Source: Variovorax beijingensis (lineage in GTDB: Bacteria; Pseudomonadota; Gammaproteobacteria; Burkholderiales; Burkholderiaceae_C). From it: a stretch of DNA of 64,000 nucleotides. Location: NCBI RefSeq assembly GCF_007828835.1, contig NZ_VIVL01000006.1, positions 310,001-374,000 on the forward strand, read 5' to 3'. The notes under the pieces are model-generated. The model did not search any database and was not told where the DNA came from. It saw only the letters and a program-made list of their open reading frames with translations. The position numbers were made by a program, and so were the translations under genes. Positions 4,368 to 38,945 of the stretch are shown here, piece after piece (position 1 is the stretch's first letter; the number at the start of each line of letters is the position of its first letter).

Positions 4368-4383
4368 AAACATCGAGCCCGCC

Positions 4384-5148
4384 ATGCATGCCGACAGGAT
4401 TCAAGATTCATCGCGCCCAGTCACGGGCAGCGAGAAAACCGCCCCGGCATGGAGCCGCCAGGAGTTCGAAGCCAAGCTGCGCGAGCGCGGCCGCAGCTAC
4501 CACATCCATCACCCGTTCAACGTCATGCTCAACAGCGGCCGGGCCACGCCCGAGCAGATCCGCGGCTGGGTGGCGAACCGCTTCTACTACCAGATCGCGA
4601 TCCCGATCAAGGACGCGGCCGTGCTCTCGAACTGCCCCGACCAGCAGGTGCGCCGCGGCTGGGTGCAGCGCATCCTCGACCACGACGGCTTCGAGCTCGG
4701 CGGCATCAAGGACGAAGGCGGCGTCGAGGCCTGGCTGCGGCTGGCCGAGGCGGTGGGGCTCACGCGCGAAGAAGTGCGCGACCTGCGCCACGTGGTGCCG
4801 GCGGTGCGCTTCGCGGTCGATGCCTACGTGAACTTCGCGCGCCGCGCGCCCTGGCAGGAGGCCGTGTGCTCCTCGCTCACCGAGCTCTTTGCGCCCGAGA
4901 TCCACAAGCAGCGCCTGGCCACCTGGCCCGAGCACTATGCGTGGATCGAATCGGCAGGCCTCGACTACTTCCGCAACCGCGTGAGCCAGGCTCGGCGCGA
5001 CGTGGAGCAGGGTCTGGCCATCACGCTCGACCACTTCGACACCCGCGCACTGCAGGAGCGCGCGCTCGAGATACTGCAGTTCAAGCTGGACATCCTGTGG
5101 GCCATGAACGATGCGATGGCGACGCGCTACGGGGTGAACGGCGCATGA
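4384..5148 (+). CDS. pqqC: Pyrroloquinoline-quinone synthase PqqC
   Basis: A 254-residue all-helical oxidase that performs the final ring closure and oxidation to give PQQ. Family motifs are seen throughout: [39 protein letters not shown] and [17 protein letters not shown] with the conserved active-site His, Tyr and Arg residues. The length matches typical PqqC (about 250). The first ATG at 4384 gives a 20-residue leader before the conserved region. The stop TGA overlaps the ATG of a 22-codon open frame that runs exactly to the pqqD start (see the mini-frame entry), so pqqC and pqqD may be translationally bridged. Confidence 0.96.
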
Positions 5149-5213
5149 GCGCTGCGCCGGGCCGCCCCAAGCAAGCTCGCACCGCAGTGCGAAGCACGAA
5201 GGTACTCCAATGA
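5145..5213 (+). other. 22-codon bridging open frame made largely of a dispersed repeat
   Basis: An ATG overlapping the pqqC stop (ATGA, 5145-5148) opens a frame of 22 codons that ends in a TGA overlapping the pqqD ATG (5210-5213). Most of it is repeat DNA: GCCGGGCCGCCCCAAG (5156-5171) is the exact reverse complement of 51935-51950, and it continues with a hairpin built from GCTCGCAC and GTGCGAAGC. It may serve to keep ribosomes moving from pqqC to pqqD and is not likely to encode a functional peptide. Confidence 0.45.
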
Positions 5214-5503
5214 CCGCGAACAAGCCCGTGCTCACCGCCGAAAGCAAGCCCCGCGTCGGCCCGGGTTTTCGCCTGCAATGGGAGCCGGCGCAGGAATGCC
5301 ATGTGCTGCTGTACCCCGAGGGCATGGTCCGGCTCAACGGCAGCGCGGGCGAGATCATGAAGCGCTGCGACGGCGAGCGCAGCGTCGCGGCCATCGTGGC
5401 CGACCTGGAGCAGGCCTTCGACACCACCGGGCTCGAACCCGAGGTGCGCGGCTTCGTCGAACTGGCGGCGCAGCAGAACTGGCTGCGCTGGGACGCCCAA
5501 TGA
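5210..5503 (+). CDS. pqqD: PqqA-binding chaperone PqqD
   Basis: A 97-residue protein of the PqqD family, which binds the PqqA peptide and presents it to the radical SAM enzyme PqqE. The winged-helix RiPP-recognition fold is recognisable from LLYPEGMVRLNGSAGEIMKRCDGERS and the C-terminal LAAQQNWLRW. Length is normal (about 90-95). The ATG overlaps the end of the preceding mini-frame, and its own stop overlaps the pqqE ATG (ATGA at 5500-5503), which suits the tight stoichiometry of PqqD and PqqE. Confidence 0.95.
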   Translation: MTANKPVLTAESKPRVGPGFRLQWEPAQECHVLLYPEGMVRLNGSAGEIMKRCDGERSVAAIVADLEQAFDTTGLEPEVRGFVELAAQQNWLRWDAQ

Positions 5504-6651
5504 CCGCCGCGCCGCCGCGCCCCGGACCGCCGCTCTGGCTGCTGGCCGAGCTGACCTACCGCTGCCCGCTGCATTGCGTGTTCTGCTTCAACCCGGTCGA
5601 CTTCGCGCAGCAGGAGAACGAACTCGGCACCGACGACTGGCTGCGCGTGCTGCGCGAAGGCCGCGAGCTCGGCGCGGTGCAGTGCGGCCTCTCGGGCGGC
5701 GAGCCGCTCCTGCGCGACGACCTGGAGATCATCATTGCCGAGGCCGCGCGCCTGGGCTACTACACCAACCTGCTGACCTCCGGCGTCGGCCTCACGGCGC
5801 AGCGCGCCGCCGCGCTGAAGGCCGCGGGCCTGGACCACGTGCAGCTGTCGTTCCAGGACTCCACGCGCGAGATGAACGACTTCCTCTCGCACACCAAGAC
5901 CTTCGAACTCAAGAACCGGGTGGCGAAGATCATCAAGGACCAGGGCTGGCCGATGGTGCTGAACGTGGTGATCCACCGCATGAACATCGACCACATCGAC
6001 CGCATCATCGAGATGGCGCACGAGATGGGGGCCGAGTACCTCGAGCTGGCCAACACCCAGTACTACTCGTGGGCCTTCGTGAACCGCGACCAGCTGCTGC
6101 CCACGCACGAGCAGCTGCGCCATGCCGAGGAGGTGACCGACGCCTGGCGCAAGCGGCTCGGCGAGCGCATGCGCATCTTCTTCGTGGCGCCTGACTACCA
6201 CGAGGGCAAGGCCAAGAAATGCGTCAACGGCTGGGGCAGCATGTTCCTCACCGTGGCGCCCGACGGCACCGCGCTGCCCTGCCACACCGCGAAGATGCTG
6301 CCGGGCCTCGAATTCCCGAACGTGAAGGCGCACGGCCTGCGCGAGATCTGGTTCGATTCCGAAGGCTTCAACCGCTACCGCGGCACCGGCTGGATGAAGG
6401 AGCCCTGCGCGAGCTGCGACCAGCGCGAGCAGGACCTGGGCGGCTGCCGCTGCCAGGCCTACCTGCTGGCGCAGGATGCGGCCGCGGCCGATCCGGTGTG
6501 CGCGAAGAGCCCGGACCACCACCGCGTGGTCGAGGCGGTGGAGCGTGCGGCCGCGCGCGATCCGGCGGCGCCGGCCGAGCATCCGCTGGTGTTCCGCGAT
6601 CCCGCCAATTCGCGGCGGCTTTCTGCCGCAATCGTCACGCCGCACGCGTGA
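5500..6651 (+). CDS. pqqE: PqqA peptide cyclase PqqE (radical SAM)
   Basis: A 383-residue radical SAM enzyme that cross-links Glu16 and Tyr20 of PqqA. The SAM-cluster motif CPLHCVFC (Cys22, Cys26, Cys29) is near the N-terminus, followed by the GGEPLL motif that contacts SAM. The C-terminal SPASM region has the expected cysteines: KKCVNGWGS, PCHTAKMLPG, PCASCDQREQDLGGCRCQAY. The start overlaps the pqqD stop by four bases. It is the last pqq gene here; pqqF/G-type proteases are not in the window, so PqqA trimming must be encoded elsewhere. The 188 bases after it hold no recognisable gene. Confidence 0.96.
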   Translation: MTAAPPRPGPPLWLLAELTYRCPLHCVFCFNPVDFAQQENELGTDDWLRVLREGRELGAVQCGLSGGEPLLRDDLEIIIAEAARLGYYTNLLTSGVGLTAQRAAALKAAGLDHVQLSFQDSTREMNDFLSHTKTFELKNRVAKIIKDQGWPMVLNVVIHRMNIDHIDRIIEMAHEMGAEYLELANTQYYSWAFVNRDQLLPTHEQLRHAEEVTDAWRKRLGERMRIFFVAPDYHEGKAKKCVNGWGSMFLTVAPDGTALPCHTAKMLPGLEFPNVKAHGLREIWFDSEGFNRYRGTGWMKEPCASCDQREQDLGGCRCQAYLLAQDAAAADPVCAKSPDHHRVVEAVERAAARDPAAPAEHPLVFRDPANSRRLSAAIVTPHA

Positions 6652-6839
6652 GGCGAGGGGCCGCCTCGGGCCGGCGCCACGGCACGGTTGAATTGCCCGG
6701 CGGCATGTGCACCGTCAAGCGGTTGACGCTGGCACGCGCCCCTGGCTACATTCCCGGACGAGCCCTTGGAGAGGCTGCCGCGTTGGCCGGCAGGCGCGTG
6801 CCTCTGCGAAATTCAACCCTGTTTCCGAAATCGAAATCC

Positions 6840-8296: not shown

Positions 8297-9289
8297 CTAC
8301 CAGTCGACCTGAGGCCACCGTGGCATTGCCGGCCGAGCCGGAGCCGGCATCCGCCATGGCCGCCAGTCCCGCATCAGGCCGAGCTCCGGCGCGAACCGCC
8401 ATGCCAGCAGCGCCAGCGCGAGCAGCGCGGGAATCCACCGCAGGTCCGTATCCGCCGGCAGATATTGCGCGTAGCGGCGGTCCAGCATGGCCGTCTTCAG
8501 GGCCTCGGGCGTGTTCAGGCGCCGGTAGTTCACGCCGACCAGCTCGGCCAGCGCGCGCAGATGGTCCTGCCGCAGCTCGGAAAGATGTTCGTGGTTGAGC
8601 GCGCTGCCGATCGCCGAGCCCTGCACCACCTCGTCGGCCCGCCAGTAGCCGGCGGGCTCGCCGTTGCTGCCGGTCTTGGGAATCGGCACCGGCACGTCGC
8701 CGCCCACGCCGATCAGCCAACCCTGGACTTCGCCGGGCTTGATGTCCGTCATCGGCGGTGTCTCGTTGATGCGCAGCGGCGGCGATTCCTGCCCGTCGCT
8801 GATGAAGACGAAGTGGGTATCGGGCCCCACGCTGCGCGCGCCGCGCACGGCCCAGGTCACGCCTTTGCTCACGTTGCTCGCATTGGCCCAGCGCATGCGG
8901 CCGTCGATGCGCTCGAGCGAGGCCAGCAGTTCCTCATAGTGGCTGCAGACCTCGACCGGCGAGAGGATCACGAGCGAGCGGTAGTCCGCGAAGACGCTCC
9001 AGCCCACCTTGGAGCCGCAGGGCAGTGCACCGAGCACCTCGCGCATGGCGGCGCGTGCGAGCGTGAGGCGGCTGACCGCCGTGTGGTCGAGTTCCACGTC
9101 CTCGACGTTCATGCTCTGCGTGATGTCGAAGCTGACCTGCCAGTTGAACACCGGGCGCTGTAGCTGCACGCGCGGCGGCCAGACCGCGAGCGCCAGCAGC
9201 AGCAGGGCCAGCACCAGCGGCCAGCTGCCGGTGCCGCCGCCGATGCGCCGCCAGGCGATGCGCCACTGTTGCCGCAGCGGCGGTTTCAC
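8297..9289 (-). CDS. mxaL: MxaL-like protein, von Willebrand factor A domain
   Basis: A 330-residue protein with an N-terminal membrane helix (SWPLVLALLLLALAVW), a VWA domain whose metal site reads DITQSMN (DxTxS form), and a C-terminal membrane helix (WIPALLALALLAWRF). MxaL belongs to the MxaACKL group that in methylotrophs is needed for active methanol dehydrogenase, with calcium insertion proposed. The GTG start at 9289 overlaps the mxaK stop (GTGA). It is the last gene of the block that begins with xoxF and ends 50 bases from the convergent GAD-like gene. The assignment rests on domain type and on gene order R-S-A-C-K-L. Confidence 0.8.
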   Translation of the reverse strand: MKPPLRQQWRIAWRRIGGGTGSWPLVLALLLLALAVWPPRVQLQRPVFNWQVSFDITQSMNVEDVELDHTAVSRLTLARAAMREVLGALPCGSKVGWSVFADYRSLVILSPVEVCSHYEELLASLERIDGRMRWANASNVSKGVTWAVRGARSVGPDTHFVFISDGQESPPLRINETPPMTDIKPGEVQGWLIGVGGDVPVPIPKTGSNGEPAGYWRADEVVQGSAIGSALNHEHLSELRQDHLRALAELVGVNYRRLNTPEALKTAMLDRRYAQYLPADTDLRWIPALLALALLAWRFAPELGLMRDWRPWRMPAPARPAMPRWPQVDW

Positions 9290-9837
9290 GGCAGGTCTCC
9301 GGCGACGAAGCCCGGCACCCGGACCCGGCGCTGCTCGTGCGCCGGCTGCTGCTCGGCGGAGAAGGCTTCCTGGTCCTCGGGCGCGAGCCGCAGCGCGCGC
9401 TCCAGGTTGTAGCGCGCGTCCCAGTCCTCGGGCGCGGCGCGCAGCAGGTCGCGCAGCCGCTGCTTGCCGAGTTCGAACAGCGGCAGCGCGCCGGCCTCCT
9501 GCGCCATGCCCTGGCGCAGGTACATGTTGCCGAGGTTGAACAGCGCCTGCTGCGCGACCGGGTCGCGCTCGCCGGCCTGGATCAGGCTCGCATAGCCCTT
9601 GAGCGCGGCATCGTGCGCGCCGGCTTTCGAGAGGGCCAGCGCCTGGGCCAGTTGCAGTTCGCGCGGGGCCGAGATCGGCGCCGTCGTCGCGTCCTTGCCG
9701 ACCGGCGTGGCGGCGATGCGGGCGATCTCGGCATTCAGGCCCATGGTGTGGCGCAGCCGCAGCCCACGCTCCAGTGCCACGCCCACGCAGCACAGGCTCA
9801 GCATGCCGAAGACCAGGTGAATCGTGCGTCGCTTCAT
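9286..9837 (-). CDS. mxaK: MxaK-like protein with TPR region
   Basis: A 183-residue protein with one N-terminal membrane helix (TIHLVFGMLSLCCVGVAL) and a periplasmic helical region with TPR-like repeats (HDAALKGYASLIQAG, VAQQALFNLGNMYLRQG, WDARYNLERALRLAP). This architecture and its position between the two VWA proteins match MxaK, part of the methanol dehydrogenase maturation set. The start ATG overlaps the stop of mxaC by four bases; an earlier in-frame start would bury it in mxaC and lacks the membrane helix at its N-terminus. Confidence 0.78.
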   Translation of the reverse strand: MKRRTIHLVFGMLSLCCVGVALERGLRLRHTMGLNAEIARIAATPVGKDATTAPISAPRELQLAQALALSKAGAHDAALKGYASLIQAGERDPVAQQALFNLGNMYLRQGMAQEAGALPLFELGKQRLRDLLRAAPEDWDARYNLERALRLAPEDQEAFSAEQQPAHEQRRVRVPGFVAGDLP

Positions 9838-10841
9838 GAAGCGCTTTCTTTCCGCCAGCTCTGCAGCTGCACGGCGCGGCAGGCGAGCAGGCCTGCGCAG
9901 CACAGCATCGCTGCCAGGTAGAACGCGGCGCCGTGGTCGCGCCGCGGGACCCGCTCATGAATGGTGAGCGGAAAATTCTGCTGCCGGTCGATCTCGGCCA
10001 TGGCGGCGGCCATGGCATTGGAGTCGTCGACCTGGTAGAGCCGGTAGGGCGTGCTCAGCGTCTTGAAGAACTGGTGCAGCGCCAGTTCCTCGCCGAGGCC
10101 GTAGGCTGAAACCGTCTCGGTGTTGAGGTTGGGCGAGTTGGGGCCGCTGCGCACGTAGATCCAGTACAGGCCGATCTTCTCGCGCGCAAGGCCGACGTGG
10201 ATGCGCTGCCGCGTCGGCTCGTCGAGCTGGGCGCCGCCGTCCGAAACGATCAGGATCACGCGGCTGCCCGAATAGCTGCGGCCTTCGAATTCCTCGATGG
10301 CCGCGAGCAGCGCCACGCCCATGCGGGTTTCGGGCAGGCCGCGGCCGATGGCGGTGGCGGCAAGCGCGGCCTGCACCGTGTCGGTCTTCTGCGTGAACGG
10401 CACCACCGCGATAGGCACCGTGCTGAAGGTCATGAAGGCAAAGCGGTTGTCGGGCCGCTTGGCGACGAATTCGCTCAGCAGGTCGCGCACGACCTTGGCC
10501 TTGGGCTCCTGTGACATGCGGCCCGCGGTCTGCAGGCCGTTGGTGTGCACCGTCGCATCCATGCTGCTGCTGCGGTCCATCAGGATCAGCACCTCGGCGC
10601 CGCGCCCGGCGCGCTCGACCACGGCGCCCGACTGCCCCGGCCCCGCGAGCCCGAGCACCGTGAAAGCCATGGCGCCGACCGCGAACGCGCGCCACAGAAA
10701 GCCGACCAGGCGCCCGACGCGGTCGGCCGGCAGCCAGCCCACATACGAGAAGCCCAGCGTGTCGCTTCGCTTGCGCAGCAACGGCAGCAGCGCAAGCGGC
10801 AGCAGCACGAGCATCCAGGGCTGGGCGAGGTCGAAGCGCAT
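9834..10841 (-). CDS. mxaC: MxaC-like membrane protein, von Willebrand factor A domain
   Basis: A 335-residue BatA-like protein: a membrane helix at residues 9-22 (WMLVLLPLALLPLL), a second near residue 50-70, a VWA domain with intact metal site DRSSSMD at about residue 90, TFSTVPIAVVPF, a second metal-site segment ETRMGVAL and IVSDGGAQLDEPT, and a C-terminal helix (AAFYLAAMLCCAGLLACRA). MxaC is part of the MoxR-associated MxaRSACKL system for methanol dehydrogenase activation. It is separated from mxaA by 15 bases and overlaps mxaK. Confidence 0.82.
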   Translation of the reverse strand: MRFDLAQPWMLVLLPLALLPLLRKRSDTLGFSYVGWLPADRVGRLVGFLWRAFAVGAMAFTVLGLAGPGQSGAVVERAGRGAEVLILMDRSSSMDATVHTNGLQTAGRMSQEPKAKVVRDLLSEFVAKRPDNRFAFMTFSTVPIAVVPFTQKTDTVQAALAATAIGRGLPETRMGVALLAAIEEFEGRSYSGSRVILIVSDGGAQLDEPTRQRIHVGLAREKIGLYWIYVRSGPNSPNLNTETVSAYGLGEELALHQFFKTLSTPYRLYQVDDSNAMAAAMAEIDRQQNFPLTIHERVPRRDHGAAFYLAAMLCCAGLLACRAVQLQSWRKESAS

Positions 10842-10856
10842 GGCTCTGTCTGCCGG

Positions 10857-11777
10857 TCAGTGCCGGTGGCGCTTTTCCGCATTGCGCAGCGCGCGGCACA
10901 GCGGCTTGAGCGGGTAGGCGGCCTGGGGCTGCGCCGGCGCGGCGGCGCTTTCGGCGAAGAAGAAGCGCCGGGTCGATTCGCGGTAGAAATCTTCCAGCCG
11001 CGGCTGCAGCGGGCGCAGGTAGGGTGCATCGGCCAGCAGCTGCGGCAGGCTGGCGCCGTGCACGACACGGCCGGCGCTCCGGTTGAGCGCGCGGTGCAGC
11101 ACGCGCCATGCCTCGGGGCTTGCCGGGTCATCGATGCGCTTGAGCTCGCGCCAGGCATGCGCGAACGGCAGCTGCTGTGCCTCGCGCATGTTGCGCCAGG
11201 CCCACCAGGCGAGCCAGGCCAGCAGCACCGCGAGCAGCGCCAGGAGCGAGAGCTTCAGATGCTGTTCGATGGCGTAGGTCGGAAGCGCCGCGACCGGCCG
11301 GTCCGGCCGCAGCGGCTGCAGGTCGCCCTGGCCGAAGGTTTCCGCCGGCGCCAGCGGCCCGATGCTGACCGGCCAGGCGGGCAAGGCGAGCGCAGGGCCC
11401 GCGACGGTGGCGATCGTCAGGGCCGGCAGCGAGATGGCGGTCAGCGCGCGCGGCGCATTGATGAGCTGGTACTCGATGGCGAGCCAGCGCCTGCCCTGTG
11501 CATCGGTCTCGATGCGCGATGGCCTGCGTTCGAGCCAGAGATCGATGCGCGCCGCGGCGGGCAACGCACCGGGCTCGAGCGGCCGGCCTTGGTGCTCGAG
11601 CAGCACGCGCTGCGTGAGCAGGTCGCCGAGCACGTGGCCGAAGCTGCGCGGCTGCTCGATGGTGGCCGCAGCGGCTGGCGTGGCGGGATCGGCGGCGCGC
11701 GCAAAACCGGCGGGCACGGCGGTCAGAAGCAGCGCCAATGCCAGCGCCGCGGGATGAACGAGGTTCGTTGCGCTCAT
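10857..11777 (-). CDS. mxaA: MxaA-like exported/membrane protein
   Basis: A 306-residue protein with a signal peptide (LVHPAALALALLLTAVPAGFARA), a periplasmic domain, and one membrane helix near residue 190 (LLALLAVLLAWLAWWAW) followed by a cytoplasmic tail. This layout matches MxaA, a BatD-like partner of the VWA proteins, required for active methanol dehydrogenase in Methylorubrum. The start ATG overlaps the stop of mxaS (ATGA at 11774-11777). Sequence similarity in this family is low, so the call depends heavily on gene order. Confidence 0.75.
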   Translation of the reverse strand: MSATNLVHPAALALALLLTAVPAGFARAADPATPAAAATIEQPRSFGHVLGDLLTQRVLLEHQGRPLEPGALPAAARIDLWLERRPSRIETDAQGRRWLAIEYQLINAPRALTAISLPALTIATVAGPALALPAWPVSIGPLAPAETFGQGDLQPLRPDRPVAALPTYAIEQHLKLSLLALLAVLLAWLAWWAWRNMREAQQLPFAHAWRELKRIDDPASPEAWRVLHRALNRSAGRVVHGASLPQLLADAPYLRPLQPRLEDFYRESTRRFFFAESAAAPAQPQAAYPLKPLCRALRNAEKRHRH

Positions 11778-12649
11778 GCCGCCGTCTCCAGGAAATAGCG
11801 CGTGAGCGCTTCGGCGTCGAAGCGGCCCTGCAGGTGAAAGGGCGGCATGCCGTGCGCATTGAACAGCGCGCTGAGTTCGGCGCGGCGCGCCGCGACCGAT
11901 TCGCGCCACCGCGTGCGCAGCGAATCGCGCATCCACAGGCTGCGCCGCGCGCCGGTTTCGGCGTCGCGCAGGGCGACCAGCGCGCGGGCCTCGGGCGGTT
12001 CGACCTCGGCCGGGTCCCAGACCACCAGCGGAACGACGCACGCCGGAGAGAACTGTTCGAGCAGCTCACCCAGCGCGGCGATCGGCCAGTGAAAGTCGGA
12101 CGCGAGAAACACCAGTCCGCCGCGGCCCACCAGGCGTTCGGTGGCGCGGCGCAAGCCTGCCAGCGCGCTGCCGTCGGTGGGCGCCGGGCCCGCGGCAGCT
12201 TGGCAGTCGCGCAGCATCGTCGCCATCAGGCTGCCGTTGCCGCGGCTGTGGCGCGCCGGCACGAAGAGGTCCTGGCGCTCGCGCTGGTCGAAGGCCAGCA
12301 GGCCGACCGTGTCGCCGGCGCGAAAGGCGCTGTAGCCCAGCGCCTCGACCAGGTCGGCCACCACGTCGAGCTTGCGGCGCTCGGCGCCGAAATGCATCGA
12401 GGCCGACACGTCGACCACCACGTGCACCGGAATCGCCACGCGCAGCCGATGGATGCGCACCAGCCAGTCGCCGCGGCCTTCGCGCACGCTCGCGCGCAGG
12501 TCGATGCGGCGCGGGTCGGGATGGTCGAACAGCCGCCGGTGCGCAGCGAATTCCTGTCCGCTGCCCTGGCTCAGCCCGCGCTGCGCACCCGGGCGCCAGC
12601 CGCCGAAGCGGCGCGGCAGCTGGTAGTGGAATTCGTCGACGCGGTCCAT
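11774..12649 (-). CDS. mxaS: MxaS-like DUF58 protein
   Basis: A 291-residue soluble DUF58 protein. It begins MDRVDEFHYQLPRRFGGWRPG and carries the DUF58 signature DHPDPRRIDLRAS and a VWA-like metal site VDVSASMHFG, followed by LLAFDQRERQDLF and LVFLASDFHWP. DUF58 proteins are the standard partner of MoxR ATPases; MxaS plays that role in methanol dehydrogenase maturation. The ATG at 12649 lies four bases after the mxaR stop and is preferred because the conserved region starts there. Confidence 0.82.
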   Translation of the reverse strand: MDRVDEFHYQLPRRFGGWRPGAQRGLSQGSGQEFAAHRRLFDHPDPRRIDLRASVREGRGDWLVRIHRLRVAIPVHVVVDVSASMHFGAERRKLDVVADLVEALGYSAFRAGDTVGLLAFDQRERQDLFVPARHSRGNGSLMATMLRDCQAAAGPAPTDGSALAGLRRATERLVGRGGLVFLASDFHWPIAALGELLEQFSPACVVPLVVWDPAEVEPPEARALVALRDAETGARRSLWMRDSLRTRWRESVAARRAELSALFNAHGMPPFHLQGRFDAEALTRYFLETAA

Positions 12650-12653
12650 GGCA

Positions 12654-13673
12654 TCAGGGGGCGGCGATCTTGTCCATGATTTGCGTGACCAGCGCTTCCG
12701 ACAGCTCGGCCCGGCGCAGTTCGTAGACCGGCGTGAAGAAGACGCGGTGCCCAAGCACCGAGGGCAGCACCGCCGCCAGATCGGCGGGTTCGAGGTGCGA
12801 GCGGCCTTCGAGCCAGGCCACGGTGCGCGCCGCGCGCAGCAGCGCGCTCATGCCGCGCGGGCTGGCGCCAGCCAGGATCAAGCGGTCCATGTCCACGCCA
12901 TCGATCCGGATACCGAACTTCTGCGGCGCTTCGGTGGCCTCCCACACGTCGAGCACATAGCGCTCGATGGTCTCGCTGGCGCGCACGCTGCGCTGCACCT
13001 GCGCGCCGATGGCGTTGAGCCGGTCCCAGGGCAGGATGGCCGGCGCCACCTTGTCGATCAGGCTTTCGGTGTCGTGGTAGGCGGTGTCGAACACCAGCGA
13101 CTGGCGGATGCCGCGGTCGGCCGGCTTGGGCATGTTCAACTCGAACATGAAGCGGTCGCGTGCCGCCGAAGCCAGTTCGAAGGTCTCTTCGCGCTCGACC
13201 TTGTTGCGGTCGGCGAACACCGTCATGTGCGGAAAGCTGTACTCGCGGTCGAAGGCCGACACCGTGCGCTCGGCCATCGCGCGCAAGAGCAGCGACTGCA
13301 CCTGCGGCCGGGCCCGGTTGATCTCGTTGAAGAAGAAGGTGACCAGGCGCTCGCCGTGGCGCAGCAGCGGCCCCGGGTCGATGCGCGGGCGGCCTTCGGC
13401 GTCCACGTAGGTGTGATAGACCAGGTCGCCGGGCATCAGGTCGACCGTGCCCTCGACGCGCTCGAAATCGCCGCCGATGGCGCGCGAGAAGGCACGCAGC
13501 ACCGTGGTCTTGCCGACGCCCACGTCGCCTTCGAGCAGCACATGGCCACGCGCGAACAGCGCCACGTTGATGAGGCGAATCGTTTCGGCCTGGCCGATCA
13601 CCGCTTTCGCGACTTCGCTTTCGACGCGCAGCGCGAGGCGGCGCCAGTCTTCGAGTTGTTCTTCGGTGCCCAT
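12654..13673 (-). CDS. mxaR: MoxR-family AAA+ ATPase MxaR
   Basis: A 339-residue MoxR-type ATPase with a Walker A motif GDVGVGKT near residue 50, the MoxR segment VEGTVDLMPGDLVYH, and sensor regions further on (MTVFADRNKVE). The Walker B region reads FFFNEINRARP, with Asn in place of the usual Asp before Glu. MoxR proteins act as chaperone-like ATPases with DUF58 and VWA partners, here in the activation of methanol dehydrogenase. It is the first of the MxaRSACKL genes and is 22 bases downstream of mxaD. The Walker B change may be normal for the MxaR subfamily. Confidence 0.88.
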   Translation of the reverse strand: MGTEEQLEDWRRLALRVESEVAKAVIGQAETIRLINVALFARGHVLLEGDVGVGKTTVLRAFSRAIGGDFERVEGTVDLMPGDLVYHTYVDAEGRPRIDPGPLLRHGERLVTFFFNEINRARPQVQSLLLRAMAERTVSAFDREYSFPHMTVFADRNKVEREETFELASAARDRFMFELNMPKPADRGIRQSLVFDTAYHDTESLIDKVAPAILPWDRLNAIGAQVQRSVRASETIERYVLDVWEATEAPQKFGIRIDGVDMDRLILAGASPRGMSALLRAARTVAWLEGRSHLEPADLAAVLPSVLGHRVFFTPVYELRRAELSEALVTQIMDKIAAP

Positions 13674-13695
13674 GGTGGTGTCCGGTGCCCCGGGG

Positions 13696-14241
13696 CTACT
13701 TCGACTCCATCATCTTCTTCAGGTGGGCGAGCCCGTCGCGGTAGACGCCGGTCACGGCCTTGATGGCGGCTTCGTCGTTCTTGTCCGGCGGCGGATCGTT
13801 GTTGGGATAGCCGCGGTAGAAGGCGCCGCGCCATTCGACGACGGACTTGCCGCCGTCGGCCACCACCGAGAGCACGGAGGTGTAGTTGGTGACCGGCAGT
13901 GCGCCGCCGTCCTTGGCGCGGTAGTTGTATTTCATCTTCGCGTCGTCGTAGCCCTCGAGCGTCTCGACCAGCGTGCCGCCGGCCTTGAGCTTGACGGTGC
14001 GCACCGAGCCTTCGGTATTGCCCTTGTCGGCCGGGCTGTCGGCCACGGCCGGATGCCAGTCCTTCAGCGCGTTGAAGTTCTTGATCCTGGCCCAGACGGC
14101 ATCGGCCGGTGCCTCGATGGTGACTTTCTCGCTCACCTTCTGGCGCGTCGGCCCGTGGGCCTGGCTCGGCGCCGATGCGGCAAGCAGGAACGATGCGAGA
14201 AGAACGGACAGCGCCCGTCGGCCGGAGGGATGTGTCAGCAT
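13696..14241 (-). CDS. mxaD: MxaD-like periplasmic SRPBCC protein
   Basis: A 181-residue protein with a signal peptide (ALSVLLASFLLAASAPSQA) and an SRPBCC (polyketide cyclase/START-like) domain: VTIEAPADAVWARIKNF, WHPAVADS, TLVETLEGYDDAKMKYNY. MxaD is reported to help electron transfer between methanol dehydrogenase and its cytochrome c. In Methylorubrum mxaD lies at the end of the mxa operon; here it sits before mxaR. The spacing to the gene on each side is 22 and 51 bases, in keeping with one transcript. Confidence 0.8.
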   Translation of the reverse strand: MLTHPSGRRALSVLLASFLLAASAPSQAHGPTRQKVSEKVTIEAPADAVWARIKNFNALKDWHPAVADSPADKGNTEGSVRTVKLKAGGTLVETLEGYDDAKMKYNYRAKDGGALPVTNYTSVLSVVADGGKSVVEWRGAFYRGYPNNDPPPDKNDEAAIKAVTGVYRDGLAHLKKMMESK

Positions 14242-14292: not shown

Positions 14293-15276
14293 TCAGGGCT
14301 CCATCGGCGTGCCGATGAAGGCGCCGAAGCCGCGGCTGTTCTGCCCCGTGGCGATGGTCTTGAGCTTCTGTCCGCTCGCGGCGTCCAGCACCTGCACGTT
14401 GTCGTCCATCCAGTTGACGACGTAGACGCGGCCGCCGTGCGCGGCAATGCCTTCGGGGTAGGCAAAGCCGGGGAGGGTGCGCAGCAGCTTCAGCGAGGCG
14501 GCGTCGATCACGCTGACCGAGTCTTCGTGCTGGTTGGTCACGTAGAGCAGCGCGCCGCCCTCGGCCAGCGCCGCGCCGTAGGGCGCCTTGCCGGCCTTCA
14601 CGGTGGCAATGACGGCTGGGCGGCGGATGTCGCGCATGTCCACCACCGAGATGTCGTTGCTCTGCACGTTGAGCGCGTAGAGGCGCGAGCGCGGCGCGTC
14701 GTAGAGCAGCGCGAACGGATGGCTGCCGACGCGCACGCGCGCCAGCACGCGCTGCGCGGCAGTGTCGACCACGGCCACGCTGTCGTCGTCGCGCTCGGCC
14801 ACGAAAACGGTGGCGCCGCCTGGATGTGCGGCCACGCCGGCAGGCGCGCGGCCGACCGCGATCGAGGCCAGCGGTTTCGCGGCCCCGGTGGCTTGTGCGT
14901 CGAGCACCAGCAGCCGGCGGCTGTACCAGTCGGCCACGTACAGGCGCCGGCCGTCGGGAGAGATGTCGATGCCCACCGGCCCGTCGCCGGCCGGCAGCGT
15001 GTCCACGACCTTCTGCTGGCGCATGTCGATGACCGAGATGGTCTTGCTGTCGGGGTTGGAGACGAAGGCCCGGCCCGCGCGGCTCGATGCCACCACGCCG
15101 GCCGGCGAGCGGCCCACCGGCACCGTGGCCACCACCTGCTGCGAGGCGAGGTCGATCACCGACACGTCGTGGCTGCCCTGGTTGGTGATGTAGGCGAACG
15201 GCGCAGCCCAGGCCGAAGTGCACAGCAGCAGCAGGGAGGCAACCCCGGCGTGCACAGGTGTCGCGATACCCGTCAT
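14293..15276 (-). CDS. Exported YVTN-type beta-propeller protein
   Basis: A 327-residue secreted protein with a signal peptide (HAGVASLLLLCTSAWA) followed by about seven propeller blades with repeats such as AYITNQGSHDVSVID, AFVSNPDSKTISVID, LYVADWYSRRLLVLD, VFVAERDDDSVAVVD and LYVTNQHEDSVSVID. YVTN propellers frequently accompany PQQ-dependent dehydrogenases, but their task is unproven; a scaffold or binding role in the periplasm is likely. A second YVTN protein lies on the other side of xoxF (20924-21922). The start was chosen at the ATG giving a proper signal peptide, 26 bases after the upstream gene. Confidence 0.85.
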   Translation of the reverse strand: MTGIATPVHAGVASLLLLCTSAWAAPFAYITNQGSHDVSVIDLASQQVVATVPVGRSPAGVVASSRAGRAFVSNPDSKTISVIDMRQQKVVDTLPAGDGPVGIDISPDGRRLYVADWYSRRLLVLDAQATGAAKPLASIAVGRAPAGVAAHPGGATVFVAERDDDSVAVVDTAAQRVLARVRVGSHPFALLYDAPRSRLYALNVQSNDISVVDMRDIRRPAVIATVKAGKAPYGAALAEGGALLYVTNQHEDSVSVIDAASLKLLRTLPGFAYPEGIAAHGGRVYVVNWMDDNVQVLDAASGQKLKTIATGQNSRGFGAFIGTPMEP

Positions 15277-15302: not shown

Positions 15303-15677
15303 TCAGCGCGCGGTCGGCGGGCCGATGAAGCAGCCCTTGTTGGCCTTGGCCTGCAGCGCCTTGTATCGCTTGATGTCGGCCTGCAGCTTTTCCGAGTCGC
15401 GGATGTAGCCGCCGCGCTCGCCGCCGATGGTGGTGGCCTTGGCGGCGGTGCTCAGGTCCACGTATTCCGAATACCTGATCTCCCTGGCCAGTGCGTCGAC
15501 CGCGCAGGAGCACTTGCTGGCCATTTCGAAGTGGCCCGCATCGGGGTGGGCCGCGATGCATTCCTGCACGTACAGCACGCGGTCCAGCGTGGGAAAGTCG
15601 TTGTTGGCATGCGTCGCGCCATGCACGGCCATCGGCAGGCCGAGAAGACAAAGAAGAAGTCGGACTGTTTTGTTCAT
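15303..15677 (-). CDS. Small exported cysteine-containing protein, function unknown
   Basis: A 124-residue protein with an N-terminal signal peptide (TVRLLLCLLGLPMAVHGA) and a mature part of about 100 residues. Cysteines occur in VLYVQECIAAHP, MASKCSCAVDALA and KGCFIGPP, four in the mature domain, which suggests two disulfides. There is no CxxCH haem motif and no EF-hand. I do not recognise the family. Its place inside the xox/mxa block, 38 bases from an exported neighbour on one side and 26 from the YVTN gene on the other, suggests a periplasmic role in methanol dehydrogenase function. Confidence 0.8.
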   Translation of the reverse strand: MNKTVRLLLCLLGLPMAVHGATHANNDFPTLDRVLYVQECIAAHPDAGHFEMASKCSCAVDALAREIRYSEYVDLSTAAKATTIGGERGGYIRDSEKLQADIKRYKALQAKANKGCFIGPPTAR

Positions 15678-15715
15678 GGCGTTCGCTGGAAGAATTTCGT
15701 GAGCGGCAACAGGCG

Positions 15716-16399
15716 CTAGCGCGCCGGCGCCTTGGCTCCGTCGATCAGGAGCTCCTCGACCATGAGGGGCTGGGCCGCGGCGCTGTCGCCCGGAATGGAG
15801 GTGCGAATGCCATAGACGCCGCCCGGCACCGCGTCGGACAGCGTGAAGCGGTAGGTCTTGGTCGCGAACTTTTCGTACTTCGGCCGGTTCGGGTCGTCCA
15901 GGAAGGGGCTGAAGACGATTTCCTTGCCCTTGATGGCGCGGCCCTGGTAGCGCAGCGACACGTCGCGCACTTCGGCGTCCTGGTAGATCCCCATGCGGAT
16001 GCGCTTGCGGAAGTGGTATTCGGAGCCGCGCGTGAGGCGCTTCATCTCGCGCACGTCGTGCTCCAGGAAATAGAGGATCACGGGATTGCCTTCGGCGGCC
16101 GGCACGTCGGGCACCGGGAGCTTGTGCGCACCGCTCAGGAACACGCCCTTGGCGTCGCAGCAGCGGCCGTCTTCCTTGGCGCTCAGGGACACGGTCACGC
16201 TGTCGGCAAACGCCTCCTCGAAGCTGCCGGTCTTGCCGAAGGTGTAGCGCAGCAGCATGGGCGCCTGCAGGTCTTTGAGCTGCGGCGTCATGAACAGCAG
16301 GCGTTCGGCGGGCGAGAAGTCGCGCTTGTCGGGCTCGGCATGCGAGGCCGGGGGAGACAAGAGAAGAACGCAGAGCGAAGCGGCGATGGCGAAGCGCAT
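15716..16399 (-). CDS. Exported protein of unknown function in the xox block
   Basis: A 227-residue protein with a clear signal peptide (AIAASLCVLLLSPPASHA). The mature part has a vicinal Cys pair in DGRCCDAKGVF, a conserved-looking ILYFLEHDVREMKRLTRG, and a beta-rich C-terminal half (FVSPFLDDP-like stretch, RFTLSDAVPGGVYGIRT). I do not recognise a named family. It starts 15 bases after the xoxJ stop and is clearly in the same transcript. A periplasmic partner of XoxF or of its cytochrome would suit the context; that is inference only. Confidence 0.8.
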   Translation of the reverse strand: MRFAIAASLCVLLLSPPASHAEPDKRDFSPAERLLFMTPQLKDLQAPMLLRYTFGKTGSFEEAFADSVTVSLSAKEDGRCCDAKGVFLSGAHKLPVPDVPAAEGNPVILYFLEHDVREMKRLTRGSEYHFRKRIRMGIYQDAEVRDVSLRYQGRAIKGKEIVFSPFLDDPNRPKYEKFATKTYRFTLSDAVPGGVYGIRTSIPGDSAAAQPLMVEELLIDGAKAPAR

Positions 16400-16414: not shown

Positions 16415-17305
16415 TCAGTTGGTGGGAACCCCGAACGATGCATCGACCAGCGGCACGCCGAACTCCTTGAGGATGGCCTGGATCTCGGGTGCCTTGGACT
16501 CGATCAGTCCTTCGACCTGCTGCTTCCATTCGCGCTCGCCGTAGCGCACGCCCATGGCCATCTGGTAGTCGAGGCGAACGCCCTTCTCGGACTTGAGCGG
16601 CACCACGACGAGGGCCGGGTTTTTGACGCGCCGCGCAAAGTAGCCCGCGATCGGGCCCCAGACCACCACGGCGTCGAGCTTGCCTTCGGCCAGGTCCTTC
16701 TCGACGATCTCGCCCGGGTACTGCGCGGGGTCGGCGCTCATGAGCTTGTAAGGCACACCCTGCTCCAGCAGGCCGTGCTTGTTGAGCCATTGCGAAGCCG
16801 GCGAGCGGTCGTAGATGCCGATGCGTAGCGACTTGAGCTTGGCCGGGTCGAGCTTGAGGAAGTCTTCCGCCGAGGCCACGTTGTCCATGCCCTTGCCCTT
16901 GGGAAAGACCAGCGCGTAGGTCGAGCGGTAGTAGGGCTTGGTGACCGAGACTTCGTCGAGCCCGACGGGCACGCCCATCACGATGTCGCAGGGGTAGTCC
17001 TGCCCCGGCAGCTTGAAGCGCAGCGTGTTGCGGAAGAAGGCCAGCCGCTGCGGGAACGAGTAGTAGGTGACCGGCAGGCCGAGCGCCTTGCCGAACACCT
17101 CGGCGATGCGGTTCTCGATGCCTTCTGCCTTGGTGTTGGAGAAGGGCATGTTGTTGGGATCCTGGCAGACGCGCAGCGCCTTGCGCGGCGGTGTTTCCTG
17201 GGCCAGCGCCGGCACCAGCGCGCAGCAGCAGGCTGCGCCCAGGAGGCCCGCCCGCAGGCGGGCGCCGATGGAAAGCGGCTTGGCAGCAGGCTGCCGCGTC
17301 GTCAT
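16415..17305 (-). CDS. xoxJ: XoxJ/MxaJ-like periplasmic binding protein
   Basis: A 296-residue exported protein with a signal peptide ending near ALVPALAQ, then a family 3 solute-binding fold: LRVCQDPNNMPFSN, GIENRIAEVFGKALG, CDIVMGVPVGLDEV, TKPYYRSTYALVF, LRIGIYDRSPA and LDAVVVWGPIAGYFA. This is the MxaJ/XoxJ family that accompanies methanol dehydrogenases and is proposed to bind and help activate the apo-enzyme, not to transport solutes. The ATG overlaps the xoxG stop by four bases (ATGA), fixing the start. Gene order xoxF-xoxG-xoxJ is the standard one. Confidence 0.92.
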   Translation of the reverse strand: MTTRQPAAKPLSIGARLRAGLLGAACCCALVPALAQETPPRKALRVCQDPNNMPFSNTKAEGIENRIAEVFGKALGLPVTYYSFPQRLAFFRNTLRFKLPGQDYPCDIVMGVPVGLDEVSVTKPYYRSTYALVFPKGKGMDNVASAEDFLKLDPAKLKSLRIGIYDRSPASQWLNKHGLLEQGVPYKLMSADPAQYPGEIVEKDLAEGKLDAVVVWGPIAGYFARRVKNPALVVVPLKSEKGVRLDYQMAMGVRYGEREWKQQVEGLIESKAPEIQAILKEFGVPLVDASFGVPTN

Positions 17306-17706
17306 TTGTTTTCTTCCACTCGGGCGCGGGTGATGGCGCCGTCGGACCGGCCCTTGAGGTAGGCGTAGAGCTGGTTGATGTTCTCCATCACCGCCGGGTT
17401 GTTGCCGAAGCTCTGCATGCCCTTGTCGAGCCTGCCGTCGCGCACGGTCTTGATGAAGTCTTCCTTCTTCATCGTCTTGAGGCTGTTGATGAGGGACGGT
17501 CCCACCATCCCTTCCTGGTTGGGTCCATGGCAGCGGTCGCAGGCCGCGGAGCGCCAGGTGCGGAAACCCTTCATGGTTTCGGGATCCACCTTGTAGCCGT
17601 CGGTGACCTTGTAGGGCGCGGGGTCTGGCGCGGCAATGGCCAGTGTGCAGGCCACGCCGGCGAGCAGGACGAGGGAAGGCAGCAACGTTGACTTACGAAA
17701 TTTCAT
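17302..17706 (-). CDS. xoxG: Cytochrome c XoxG, electron acceptor of XoxF
   Basis: A 134-residue exported class I-like cytochrome c. It has a signal peptide (LLPSLVLLAGVACTLAIAA), one haem-binding motif CDRCH in RSAACDRCHGPNQEG, and a likely axial Met in DKGMQSFGNNP. XoxG cytochromes take electrons from the PQQ of XoxF in the periplasm. The start is the ATG at 17706, because the upstream in-frame extension would add a charged segment before the signal peptide. A hairpin lies between it and xoxF; downstream it overlaps xoxJ. Confidence 0.93.
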   Translation of the reverse strand: MKFRKSTLLPSLVLLAGVACTLAIAAPDPAPYKVTDGYKVDPETMKGFRTWRSAACDRCHGPNQEGMVGPSLINSLKTMKKEDFIKTVRDGRLDKGMQSFGNNPAVMENINQLYAYLKGRSDGAITRARVEENK

Positions 17707-17821: not shown

Positions 17822-19648
17822 TCAGTTGGGCAGCGCGAAGACAGTCAGCGAGCCGCCGAGCTCGGTGTACTGGGCGAGGTCCTTGTAGCCGCCGACGGCG
17901 CCCAGGCCTTCGGTGCTCTTCTCGGGGTCGATGCCCGCAGCCATGCCGATGCCGGCCCAGCCGCCGATGCCCGAGAACACGCCGACGTACTGCTTGCCCT
18001 TGTGCTCATAGGTGAACACGTTGCCGATGATGCCGGACGGGGTCTTGAACTTGAACAGCTCCTTGTTGATGTCCTTGGCATCCACGCACTTCAGGTAGCC
18101 TTCCAGCGTGCCGTAGCAGGAGATCCCGCCCGCGGTGTTCAGCGAACCGCTCCACACCGAGAACTTCTCGGCCTTGGTCTGCACGATCTTGCCGGTGCCC
18201 GCATCCCAGGCGATGAAGTTGCCCATGCCGCCATGGCTGCCCGGTGTGGGGTACATCGAGAGCGTGGCGCCCACGTACGGCTGGCCTGCCGTGTACTCGA
18301 CCTTGAACGGCTCGTAGTCCATGCAGACGTGGTTCGTCGGCACGTAGAAGAGCTTGGTGTTGGGGTCGTAGGAAGCCGGTTGCTGGTCCTTGCTGCCCAG
18401 TGCCGCCGGGCAGATGCCCTTGGTGTTGACGTCGGCGCCGTTCTGCGCGGTCGAGTACTTGGCCACCACCTGCGGCCGGCCGGTCTTCATGTCGACGTGC
18501 GTGGCCCAGTTCACCTTGGGGTCGTACTTCTCGGCCACCAGCAGCGCGCCGGTCACACGGTCCAGCGTGTAGGCGAAGCCGTTGCGGTCGAAGTGCACCA
18601 GCGCCTTGGTCGGCTTGCCCTTGACGTTGATGTCCGCCAGGATCATTTCATTGATGCCGTCGAAGTCCCACTCGTCGAACGGCGTCATCTGGTAGACCCA
18701 GTTGACCTTGCCGGTGTCGACGTCGCGCGACCAGATGCTCATGGACCACTTGTTGTCGCCGGGCCGCTGCGAGGGGTTCCAGGTCGACGGGTTTCCGGTG
18801 CCGTAGTACACGGCATTGGTCGCCTTGTCGTAGCTGTACCAGCCCCAGGTGGTGCCGCCGCCGATCTTCCACTGGTCGCCCTTCCAGGTCTTCAGCGAAG
18901 AGTCCTTGCCCACGGGCGCCATCTTGCCGTCGGTCCAGGTCATGGTCTTGGCCGGGTCCATCAGCATTTCTTCGTCCGGGCCGGTGCTGTAGCCCTTCCA
19001 GGCCAGCTTGCCGTCCTTGATGTTGTAGGCTGCAAGGAAGCCGCGCACGCCGAACTCGCCGCCGCTGATGCCGGTGATGACCTTGTCCTTGAAGACGTGG
19101 GGTGCGTTGGTGTTGGTGGCACCGACCTTCGGATCGCCGTTCTTCACGGTCCACACCACCTTGCCGGTCTTGCTGTCGAGCGCCACCAGGGTGGTGTCGG
19201 CCTGTTGCAGGAAGACCTTTCCTTCCGCATAGGCGAGCCCGCGGTTCACCGTGTCGCAGCACATGACCGCGATCACCGACTGGTCCTGCTTGGGTTCGTA
19301 CTTCCACAGGATCTTCTGGGTTTCCACGTCGAGCGCGAACACCTTGTTCGGGAACGGCGAGTGCAGGTACATGACGCCATCGACCACCAGGGGCGAACCC
19401 TCGTGGCCGCGCAGCACGCCGGTGGAGAAAGTCCACGCGACCTGCATCTTGCCCACGTTGCTCTTGGTGATCTGATTCAACTTGCTGTATCGCTGGTTGA
19501 ACATATCGCCCGCTTGCGTGGCCCAGTTCTTGGAGTTGGCGATGTTTTTCTCGACGTCGGCATTGGCGAGCGCCAAGGCCGGAAGAGCCAACATCGCGAC
19601 GCCGATATGCCGTACGAGACGGCCGGCGATCTGCCTGGAAAACTTCAT
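17822..19648 (-). CDS. xoxF: Lanthanide-dependent methanol dehydrogenase XoxF
   Basis: A 608-residue PQQ-dependent propeller enzyme with a signal peptide ([17 protein letters not shown]) that oxidises methanol in the periplasm. The adjacent cysteines Cys130-Cys131 (VMCCDTV) form the vicinal disulfide next to PQQ. The active site reads DEWDFDG: Asp328 is the catalytic base and Asp330, two residues on, is the extra acid that marks lanthanide-dependent enzymes (MxaF has Ala there). Glu198 (GGEFGVRG) and Asn286 (GTGNPSTWN) supply the other metal ligands. Trp-docking repeats such as [11 protein letters not shown] are present. It is the first gene of the 13-gene block and has a good ribosome site (GAGGAGA) before the ATG. 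No mxaI-like small subunit follows. Confidence 0.97.
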
Positions 19649-20884: not shown

Positions 20885-20923
20885 ATCAAGAACTATCCGA
20901 GCCAAAAAGAATGGAGACATCGC

Positions 20924-24979: not shown

Positions 24980-24992
24980 GGGGGAGAACGCC

Positions 24993-27290: not shown

Positions 27291-29873
<2,583 letters not shown>

Positions 29874-29903
29874 ACCCGCTTTCCAGTTCCAGGAGCAACA
29901 GAC

Positions 29904-30323: not shown

Positions 30324-30359
30324 TCGAACCCTTTCGCACGCGCATTGCAAGAGGCACGC

Positions 30360-32083: not shown

Positions 32084-32107
32084 ATGCAGAACCAGGAAAG
32101 AAACACC

Positions 32108-33519: not shown

Positions 33520-33537
33520 TTCAACCAGGAGACGATC

Positions 33538-34611
<1,074 letters not shown>

Positions 34612-34658
34612 ACGAGACCCCGCCGCCCGCACGAATTCTTCATCTCCCCGAGGCCACC

Positions 34659-35537: not shown

Positions 35538-35592
35538 CGCGCGCCCGCCGCGGCCGAACACCTCACGCACAACGAACCCACCGGAACCTCGC

Positions 35593-38704: not shown

Positions 38705-38709
38705 CGCTG

Positions 38710-38934: not shown

Positions 38935-38945
38935 TGCAGGAAACC

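Follow-up and report, generated by a model that had tools for sequence, protein, structure and literature searches.

The mxaRSACKL genes have been assigned a role in calcium or metal insertion for the methanol dehydrogenase MxaFI (PMC6028718, PMC11845868). In the window analysed here (the whole stretch of 64,000 nucleotides from Variovorax beijingensis), these genes are joined to xoxF, which raises the question of what the machine serves where MxaFI is lacking. The role of the MoxR/VWA machine for quinoprotein dehydrogenases is unsettled, and a 2024 review treats it as a calcium device and states that XoxF does not require the mxaRSACKL genes (PMC11845868).

Gene content of the xoxF-mxaRSACKL run

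A single run on the minus strand, from 19648 down to 8297, contains xoxF, a cytochrome c gene, xoxJ, two small conserved genes, a beta-propeller gene, mxaD and mxaR, S, A, C, K and L. The gaps are at most 115 bases and four neighbours overlap by 4 bases; xoxF through mxaL would be transcribed together. Neither promoter-like sites (0 versus 0.8 in shuffled sequences) nor terminator-like sites (10 versus 7.4, sd 3.0) were in excess. On the plus strand, pqqB, pqqC, pqqD and pqqE for cofactor synthesis (3447..6651; PF12706, PF03070, PF05402, PF04055) converge with the operon, and the genes for a PQQ-linked ABC ATPase, a beta-propeller protein and a binding protein (20171..23100; PF00005, TIGR03866 over and TIGR03863 below its cut-off) diverge from it.

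First, the dehydrogenase encoded by xoxF (17822..19648, 608 aa) is classed as a lanthanide-type XoxF, for which lanthanide content and dependence are predicted. The protein matched TIGR03075 (2.5e-220), the best PDB matches were the XoxF structures 6dam (1.6e-289) and 6oc5, and a ten-residue stretch aligned to both structures carries the extra active-site aspartate. The c-type cytochrome (17302..17706, 134 aa from the chosen start) matched PF13442 and, below the curated cut-off, TIGR03874 (2.8e-19); it occupies the equivalent place in other xox operons and may act as XoxG. The periplasmic binding-type protein XoxJ (16415..17305) scored 284 bits against TIGR03871 (cut-off 212) versus 101 bits against the MoxJ model TIGR03870 (cut-off 258). 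The two small conserved xox-operon proteins, of 227 aa (15716..16399) and 124 aa (15303..15677, no Pfam match), gave 65 and 50 profile matches including the window. The predicted fold of the former (AlphaFold2 pLDDT 91) is weakly LolA-like, with LolA/LprG-like best PDB folds at TM below 0.45 among the matches examined; a "soxYZ" label for this gene was dropped, NCBIfam and Pfam giving it no support. The beta-propeller protein (14293..15276) is of the YVTN type (TIGR02276, 3.9e-64).

Second, the six maturation genes were found in the order R-S-A-C-K-L. MxaR (12654..13673) is a MoxR-type AAA ATPase (PF07726, 3e-26; PF17863) with the Walker A sequence GDVGVGKT, the pattern GxVGVGKT being present in 140 of 142 MxaR proteins. 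MxaS (11774..12649) is a DUF58 protein (PF01882, 4e-21) with the MIDAS-like motif DVSASM, and MxaC (9834..10841) is a VWA protein (PF13519, 1.2e-11) with DRSSSM. MxaK (9286..9837) is TPR-like, matching PF13432 (1.6e-5) and the BatC-like NF047507 (3.9e-4), both below cut-off. MxaA (10857..11777; profile A1) and MxaL (8297..9289) gave no match in Pfam or NCBIfam at 0.001 and are identified by gene order and by their homology to the equivalently placed genes of MxaFI operons, where MxaA and MxaK are annotated; for the VWA-like MxaL, a MIDAS-like motif (DITQSM here, present in 138/138 MxaL) adds to this. The AlphaFold2 model (pLDDT 86) and hydropathy of MxaA predict a beta domain, one membrane helix and a helical part, and its fold search returned no match below E 0.001. 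MxaA, C, K and L are all predicted to be membrane proteins, with C, K and L anchored in the membrane.

Third, the mxaD homolog (13696..14241; PF10604, 7.4e-33) lies upstream of mxaR, whereas mxaD follows mxaL in the MxaFI operons compared. In a midpoint-rooted tree of 39 MxaD sequences, the five MxaFI-linked proteins formed their own clade (support 1.0), apart from the window. By this position and type, mxaD here belongs to a xox operon and mxaRSACKL follows it; the locus is no transplanted mxaRSACKL-D block. The original prediction of a full mxaRSACKL-mxaD set was exact in its limits, with mxaL ending at 8297 and mxaD starting at 14241 on the minus strand, and correct in its genes, with one correction on the place of mxaD. 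Its further statement that the set shares one block with a lanthanide-type XoxF in the absence of mxaF and mxaI was borne out by the gene run, the XoxF aspartate and the MxaI search described below.

Distribution, selection and lineage of the genes

The 6.94 Mb, 37-contig assembly, rated 100% complete, gave a single 23-position match to MxaI (PF02315), at E 0.34 and below cut-off, so that no mxaF-mxaI pair was found in this genome. The next homologs of XoxF are 41, 39 and 29% identical, with none between 41 and 100%. MxaI was likewise found in 0/299 genomes of the family set; the same search recovered it in 6/349 genomes of the order set, demonstrating that it works.

Presence of the maturation genes was scored by MxaA because the MxaS profile also picks up further DUF58 genes (E 3.6e-8 to 1.2e-28), including one in the genome of the window (1.9e-27). 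In the family set, MxaA was observed in 31/299 genomes, 30 of which carry XoxF (at least 80% identity); the 262 genomes with neither gene rest on a search with one query sequence and at most seven scored candidates per genome. MxaA was present in 30/36 XoxF genomes versus 1/20 genomes with only another PQQ dehydrogenase (E 1e-100), a class set by 40-45% identity rather than by motif, and the Fisher tests on this co-occurrence ignore relatedness. One partial MxaA match (G026, 2.6e-4) was excluded as the profile did not recover it, and a 46-aa piece in a 6048-aa frame of G170 (3.1e-4) was taken as chance, this genome being scored without MxaA. In the order set, MxaA was observed in 32/349 genomes, 6 with MxaI and 26 without; XoxF was present in 30 of the 32, and in a 31st (L163) XoxF is cut by a contig end. 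Conversely, MxaA was undetected in 21 XoxF genomes (6/36 in the family set and 15/45 in the order set, a few of them incomplete drafts), so that XoxF cannot have a general need of the genes. In one of these (G058), XoxF is 89% identical to that of the operon; in two others the absence is weak because the assemblies are 85% (G419) and 78% (G422) complete. The MxaS profile, applied to 20 of the 21 (G487, whose XoxF frame has two stops, was left out), found nothing in 11 and only weak DUF58-type matches in 9.

The arrangement of the genes was compared in 144 clusters, each retaining five or six of the genes. They are a non-random set, drawn from family matches, order matches and the 80 best among the 260 loci that one scan gave. 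We excluded ten loci having only two to four genes, as well as duplicates: L068-L070 as short versions of the window, of L030 and of L027, and L085, L089 and L156 as identical to L024, L025 and L095. All six genes were present in 136/144 clusters, always on one strand and in the order RSACKL, and the other 8 have five. Among the best 80 of the 260 scanned loci, the operon order was kept in 11/11 Variovorax loci returned, and xoxF, the cytochrome gene, xoxJ, the 227-aa gene and mxaRSACKL were contiguous on one strand in 9/20 Paraburkholderia/Burkholderia loci, one of which meets a contig end before mxaL. V. paradoxus NBRC 15149 (locus L073) is a laboratory strain with this operon. In the same scan, xoxF was absent from the stretch in 11/20 Paraburkholderia/Burkholderia loci and present in 0/10 Caballeronia loci. 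Neither xoxF nor MxaFI lies near in 97/144 clusters, and 20 of 21 genomes chosen from these carry a XoxF-like enzyme, MxaI being outside that search.

The six genes are under purifying selection, with dN/dS of 0.008-0.30 in comparison with five of the 11 Variovorax loci, similar to the rest of the operon. In the joined RSACKL tree, sampled outside the methanotroph gammaproteobacteria as were the single-gene trees, the 11 MxaFI-linked clusters formed one clan (support 0.993; L183, which has a XoxF gene less than 2 kb away, is counted among them). The window fell outside it, as did every cluster linked only to XoxF. The window was also outside the smallest clan holding these 11 clusters in each of the six single-gene trees; this clan consisted of the 11 alone in the R, C and K trees, whereas it gained one tip in the S tree (L030), one in the A tree (L166) and 15 in the L tree, the last all being order-set loci within L173-L192. 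At the 90% level, two columns distinguish XoxF-type from MxaFI-type proteins, both in MxaR.

The probable client of the machine

Taken together, the lack of MxaI, the co-occurrence with XoxF, the purifying selection and the separate clan suggest that these genes serve no hidden MxaFI and are probably not left over from a lost one, and that they most likely mature XoxF. We consider it probable that mxaRSACKL is here a working maturation machine made together with XoxF, as the original prediction had offered for one of its two readings; the linkage, co-occurrence, selection and phylogeny that favour it are those of comparative genomics. We infer XoxF as the client, and the following remodelling step. 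The cytoplasmic ATPase MxaR and its VWA-like partner MxaS would drive the process, the drive passing via the membrane proteins MxaA, MxaC, MxaK and MxaL, whose VWA, TPR and beta domains would face the periplasm. Newly exported apo-XoxF may then be remodelled so that PQQ and the metal, perhaps a lanthanide as the original prediction put it, enter and the dimer forms, with XoxJ and MxaD acting alongside.

Several other explanations were weighed. It is rather unlikely that the machine is a conditional aid, needed in some states such as scarce lanthanide, or letting XoxF take calcium or another metal, and otherwise dispensable. The XoxF genomes in which MxaA was undetected and the five parsimony changes in the presence of MxaA along a XoxF tree (35 of the 36 family genomes) agree with such a role. 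So does Methylorubrum extorquens AM1, where XoxF1 is reported to be induced while lanthanum lowers mxaRSACKL expression (log2 -4.3 to -7.0; PMC6414531), and both the genomes and this decrease argue against a strict need of XoxF for the genes. The nearly one-way co-occurrence and the strong constraint, however, suggest a regular rather than a rare role. Service to another PQQ alcohol dehydrogenase of the genome is quite unlikely. A MoxR/VWA machine can be encoded away from its client, and an enzyme encoded on contig C26, 41% identical to XoxF, also carries the lanthanide-type aspartate (DSWDFDGVNE); against this stands the single MxaA genome among the 20 that have the 40-45% class without XoxF. 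The genes bear the names of the MxaFI system, and single mxa genes without mxaF or mxaI in several Sphaerotilus genomes have been read as remnants of it (PMC13300288). That the present set consists of such remnants, kept by chance, is highly improbable given its low dN/dS in all six genes, the complete ordered six in nearly all clusters, the absence of MxaI from the family, the position outside the MxaFI clan shared with clusters linked to XoxF alone, and the tight co-occurrence with XoxF. The second reading of the original prediction, a standard MxaFI elsewhere in the genome as the real client, is refuted as far as the assembly goes and next to impossible, since the genome has no close XoxF homolog, and MxaI was not found by a search that does recover it in the order.

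Relation to known systems and meaning

Compared with the mxaFJGIRSACKLD operon of Methylobacterium, Methylocystis, Paracoccus and Methylophilaceae, the six genes, their order, the MIDAS-like motifs of S, C and L and the Walker A of MxaR are alike. Unlike that operon, the present one has no mxaF, mxaG-type cytochrome or mxaI, is joined to xoxF, has mxaD before mxaR, and its sequences are not part of the clan that the 11 compared MxaFI-linked clusters form. The set contains an AAA ATPase, DUF58, VWA, TPR and membrane parts, as do Bat / MoxR-VWA systems, which the whole set may resemble; MxaC resembles the BatA model and MxaK the BatC model, weakly and far below cut-off.

That mxaRSACKL can occur without MxaFI (Methylophilaceae, Sphaerotilus) and xoxFJG near mxaRSACKL (Methylotenera mobilis 13) is already known. 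Methylotenera mobilis JLW8 and M. versatilis 301 are described as having mxaRSACKL without mxaFJGI, and without mxaD, whereas the present block follows mxaD inside the xoxF run; in M. mobilis 13, xoxFJG lies three genes upstream of mxaRSACKL, but that island also has MxaFI (PMC4109929). The Sphaerotilus xoxF5 genomes described in 2026 also have XoxF without MxaFI and several mxa accessory genes (PMC13300288); these partial sets were read there as remnants, whereas the comparative evidence here favours a working set. AM1 likewise has XoxF, XoxG and XoxJ, and a MxaD homolog is reported to aid XoxF1 (PMC7391723), but its mxaRSACKL lies with mxaFJGI at a separate place and falls with lanthanum (PMC6414531). 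The text of the XoxF1 transposon screen in which this homolog is named does not name mxaR, mxaA, mxaC or moxR (PMC7391723). In Methylosinus OB3b, MxaA, C, D and K are reported to fall with cerium (PMC12482762), and for Paracoccus aminophilus, methanol growth via XoxF is described with no mxa genes detected (PMC4543880). These published observations weigh against the reading of a XoxF maturation machine, as do the clusters and loci without a nearby xoxF. No earlier report of a systematic link between mxaRSACKL and XoxF, or of the separate lineage, was found in the open-access papers covered here.

The MxaFI-linked clusters compared form one clan beside a wider XoxF-associated set, which fits a published view of mxaF as younger than xoxF (PMC12997859). 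It is therefore possible, and we propose it only tentatively, that MxaRSACKL originally matured the enzymes of XoxF lineages, perhaps by lanthanide loading, and that the calcium role with MxaFI would be a later recruitment of one branch; the joined tree is midpoint rooted and does not itself give the direction of recruitment. Because the machine is kept without MxaFI, any defect upon its deletion must act via XoxF or another client. A lineage with intact helper genes and no calcium enzyme thus provides a clean test of the role of these genes, with a bearing on how cells supply enzymes with rare-earth metals and on how the calcium enzyme arose.

The xox-mxa gene run and its proteins

In the window (64 kb, G+C content 68%), thirteen genes form a single run on the minus strand, from xoxF (17822-19648) to mxaL (ending at 8297), in the order xoxF, c-type cytochrome, xoxJ, a 227-aa gene, a 124-aa gene, YVTN beta-propeller, mxaD and mxaRSACKL. 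The gaps are at most 115 bases, 4-base overlaps occur four times, and promoter- or terminator-like sites were no more numerous than in shuffled sequence. Thus, the complete mxaRSACKL and mxaD set described in the original prediction is indeed joined to XoxF. pqqBCDE is convergent with this run, and a PQQ-linked ABC set is divergent from xoxF. The 227-aa and 124-aa genes (15303-16399) match no family model and recur next to xoxF in many loci.

Over almost its whole length XoxF aligns with the solved XoxF structures 6dam and 6oc5, and in that alignment it carries the additional lanthanide-type Asp; XoxJ scores above the TIGR03871 cut-off and below that for MoxJ. Domain matches identify MxaR as a MoxR-type ATPase, MxaC as a VWA protein, MxaS as a DUF58 protein and MxaD as a PF10604 protein; the TPR match of MxaK is weak. 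No library model matched MxaA or MxaL, and these putative assignments follow position and homology to the same-place genes of MxaFI operons. Among 144 clusters (loci with at least five of the six mxaRSACKL genes, from family matches, order matches and the best 80 of 260 loci of one scan), a MIDAS-like motif was observed in MxaC (144/144), MxaL (138/138) and MxaS (138/144), and 140 of 142 MxaR carry the Walker A motif GxVGVGKT. The Walker B stretch is N-E in all 139 of the 142 MxaR giving a match, MxaFI-linked and XoxF-linked alike (e.g. window 12654-13673); the usual form in MoxR proteins is D-E. Hydropathy indicates membrane segments in MxaA, C, K and L and none in R and S, and the flanking charges suggest a periplasmic location for the VWA, TPR and beta domains of the membrane proteins. 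The predicted MxaA model (pLDDT 86) consists of a beta domain plus helices, one of them long.

Association of mxaRSACKL with XoxF

First, among 299 genomes of the family, XoxF at at least 80% identity was found in 36 and MxaA in 31 (leaving out a weak partial MxaA match in genome G026): both in 30, XoxF alone in six and MxaA alone in one, G104, which is 76% complete. Ignoring kinship, the Fisher p was 4e-34 by genome and 1e-18 by genus (19 with both, 4 with XoxF only, 1 with MxaA only, 117 with neither). Where only another PQQ dehydrogenase was present (40-45% identity, E 1e-100), MxaA occurred in one genome of 20, again G104. Second, among 349 genomes of the order, MxaA was found by profile in 32, XoxF in 45 (E 1e-120, every counted genome having a match of at least 58% identity) and both in 30; in the other two MxaA genomes, xoxF is cut by a contig end (G299, locus L163) or the assembly is 85% complete (G622). 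MxaI accompanies MxaA in 6 of the 32, and 15 genomes have XoxF without MxaA. The MxaS profile, applied to 20 of the 21 XoxF genomes without MxaA, gave no match in 11 and weak matches at the general DUF58 level in nine. Therefore, the association runs in one direction: where mxaRSACKL occurs, XoxF is nearly always present, but XoxF is not always accompanied by mxaRSACKL. On the XoxF tree (35 of 36 family enzymes), presence of mxaRSACKL takes five changes by parsimony.

Third, XoxF lies in the fetched stretch of 42 of the 144 clusters, MxaFI in five (one of which, L183, has XoxF too) and neither in 97; of these, 14 are on stretches shorter than 15 kb and four have xox-type xoxJ or mxaD genes around them. 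Of 21 genomes chosen by hand from these 97 for taxonomic spread, 19 have XoxF at at least 69% identity, one (L115) combines matches at 54% with a 181-aa piece at 82%, and a MAG (L101) gave no XoxF match. All six genes occur in 136 clusters, each time on a single strand in the order RSACKL, and xoxF shares the strand of mxaR in 28 of the 41 XoxF-linked clusters having a called mxaR. Among the best 80 of 260 loci, the window's gene order is kept in all 11 from Variovorax; xoxF, cytochrome, xoxJ, the 227-aa gene and mxaRSACKL are consecutive in 9 of 20 Paraburkholderia/Burkholderia loci (one cut before mxaL), and xoxF is nearby in none of 10 from Caballeronia. Four of the six family XoxF genomes without RSACKL (L010, L046, L052, L060) have mxaD in their xox operons, and mxaD is therefore part of the xox operon in this family.

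Several side observations were made. In the family sample, the genus has three further genomes (G122, G215, G285), which gave no XoxF (E 1e-100) and no MxaA (E 0.001); the operon is patchy within the genus. Four family genomes each carry two different clusters (L024/L043, L025/L032, L026/L031, L029/L039): a window-like one, with MxaA at 52-66% identity, and another from a second class, at 33-36%. A xox-mxaRSACKL cluster in a MAG named Desulfovibrionaceae (L086) groups beside Variovorax, probably through a binning error. Between mxaL and pqqE lies a variable spot: the two genes abut end to end in 6 of 11 Variovorax loci, and in five 1.5-3.2 kb of other DNA comes between them. In the window this spot holds a GAD-like-domain protein (6219-8246), for which the other 192 loci gave no relative.

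Descent of the genes and absence of MxaFI

The suggestion that the system also serves XoxF is supported by linkage, co-occurrence, maintained genes and separate descent; the existence of XoxF genomes without MxaA counts against it. Because XoxF enzymes, some nearly identical, manage without the machine, it may be conditional or replaceable for XoxF.

In available excerpts, the partial mxa set of Sphaerotilus, which is without MxaFI, is interpreted as remnants (PMC13300288), and the window's genes could likewise be read as the remnant of an MxaFI operon. However, such a remnant would be expected within the MxaFI-linked clan, and the window lies outside. The five MxaFI-linked clusters form one clade in the tree of 144; with six alphaproteobacterial MxaFI operons added from plasmid records, all 11 form one clan (support 0.993, midpoint rooted), outside which fall the window and every cluster linked to XoxF alone. 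In the six single-gene trees, the smallest clan with all 11 never contains the window. Moreover, the six genes have dN/dS values of 0.008-0.30 (versus 5 of 11 Variovorax loci), resembling those of xoxF, xoxJ and the pqq genes, and therefore the six genes are maintained, which also argues against a remnant. The 11 best named matches of MxaS are Variovorax loci (86-94% identity), by which the organism is assigned to Variovorax.

An MxaFI elsewhere in the genome, the other option originally offered, is opposed by the search of its own assembly (6.94 Mb, 37 contigs, completeness rating 100%), in which PF02315 gave no MxaI over cut-off and a single 23-position match (E 0.34). The same model found none in the 299 family genomes at E 0.001 and found MxaI in 6 of 349 order genomes, and therefore the search works; all six belong to one family (f26), which we take to be Methylophilaceae. 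Besides XoxF, the genome's homologs have 41, 39 and 29% identity: the first (contig C26; L003, L064) is a second PQQ alcohol dehydrogenase with the lanthanide-type motif DSWDFDGVNE, and the second has a c-type haem motif close to its end. Thus, as far as this assembly shows, mxaF and mxaI are absent from the genome.

Published record and role in the lineage

In the available portions of the sources, a review states that XoxF does not require mxaACKLD or mxaRSEH (PMC11845868), mxaRSACKL is strongly down with lanthanum in M. extorquens AM1 (PMC6414531), and cerium lowers Mxa accessory proteins in Methylosinus OB3b (PMC12482762). For a XoxF1 screen, the excerpted text mentions an MxaD homolog but none of mxaR, mxaA, mxaC or moxR (PMC7391723), and that for Paracoccus aminophilus reports XoxF use with mxa genes not detected (PMC4543880). 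The accessible text gives xoxF in 28 of 34 Comamonadaceae genera and classes the V. paradoxus S110 enzyme as xoxF5 (PMC7065363). Excerpts on Methylotenera mobilis JLW8 and M. versatilis 301 describe two mxaRSACKL clusters, with mxaFJGI and mxaD absent (PMC4109929). In M. mobilis 13, as in the window, xoxFJG is close to mxaRSACKL (three genes upstream), but unlike the window, the same island holds mxaFJGI (PMC4109929); beyond this strain, no xoxF-mxaRSACKL linkage was seen in the open-access listings searched, one of them covering 20 of its 70 entries.

A TonB-dependent receptor (24888-27290) beside the PQQ/xox genes is a candidate lanthanide-chelate receptor. The stretch 27309-44237, with a cbbR-like LysR regulator, a RuBisCO large chain (28494-29873, presumably form II), further Calvin-cycle ORFs recognized by eye and, at 39779-44237, the molybdopterin and NADH-binding subunits of what is probably a formate dehydrogenase, is a probable methanol-to-CO2-to-sugar island.

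The xoxF-linked mxaRSACKL is a variant, apparently not previously described, of a known system. That the machine served lanthanide enzymes first is a tentative and rather doubtful proposal; judging from the sequence comparisons, mxaRSACKL quite probably matures XoxF in this lineage.
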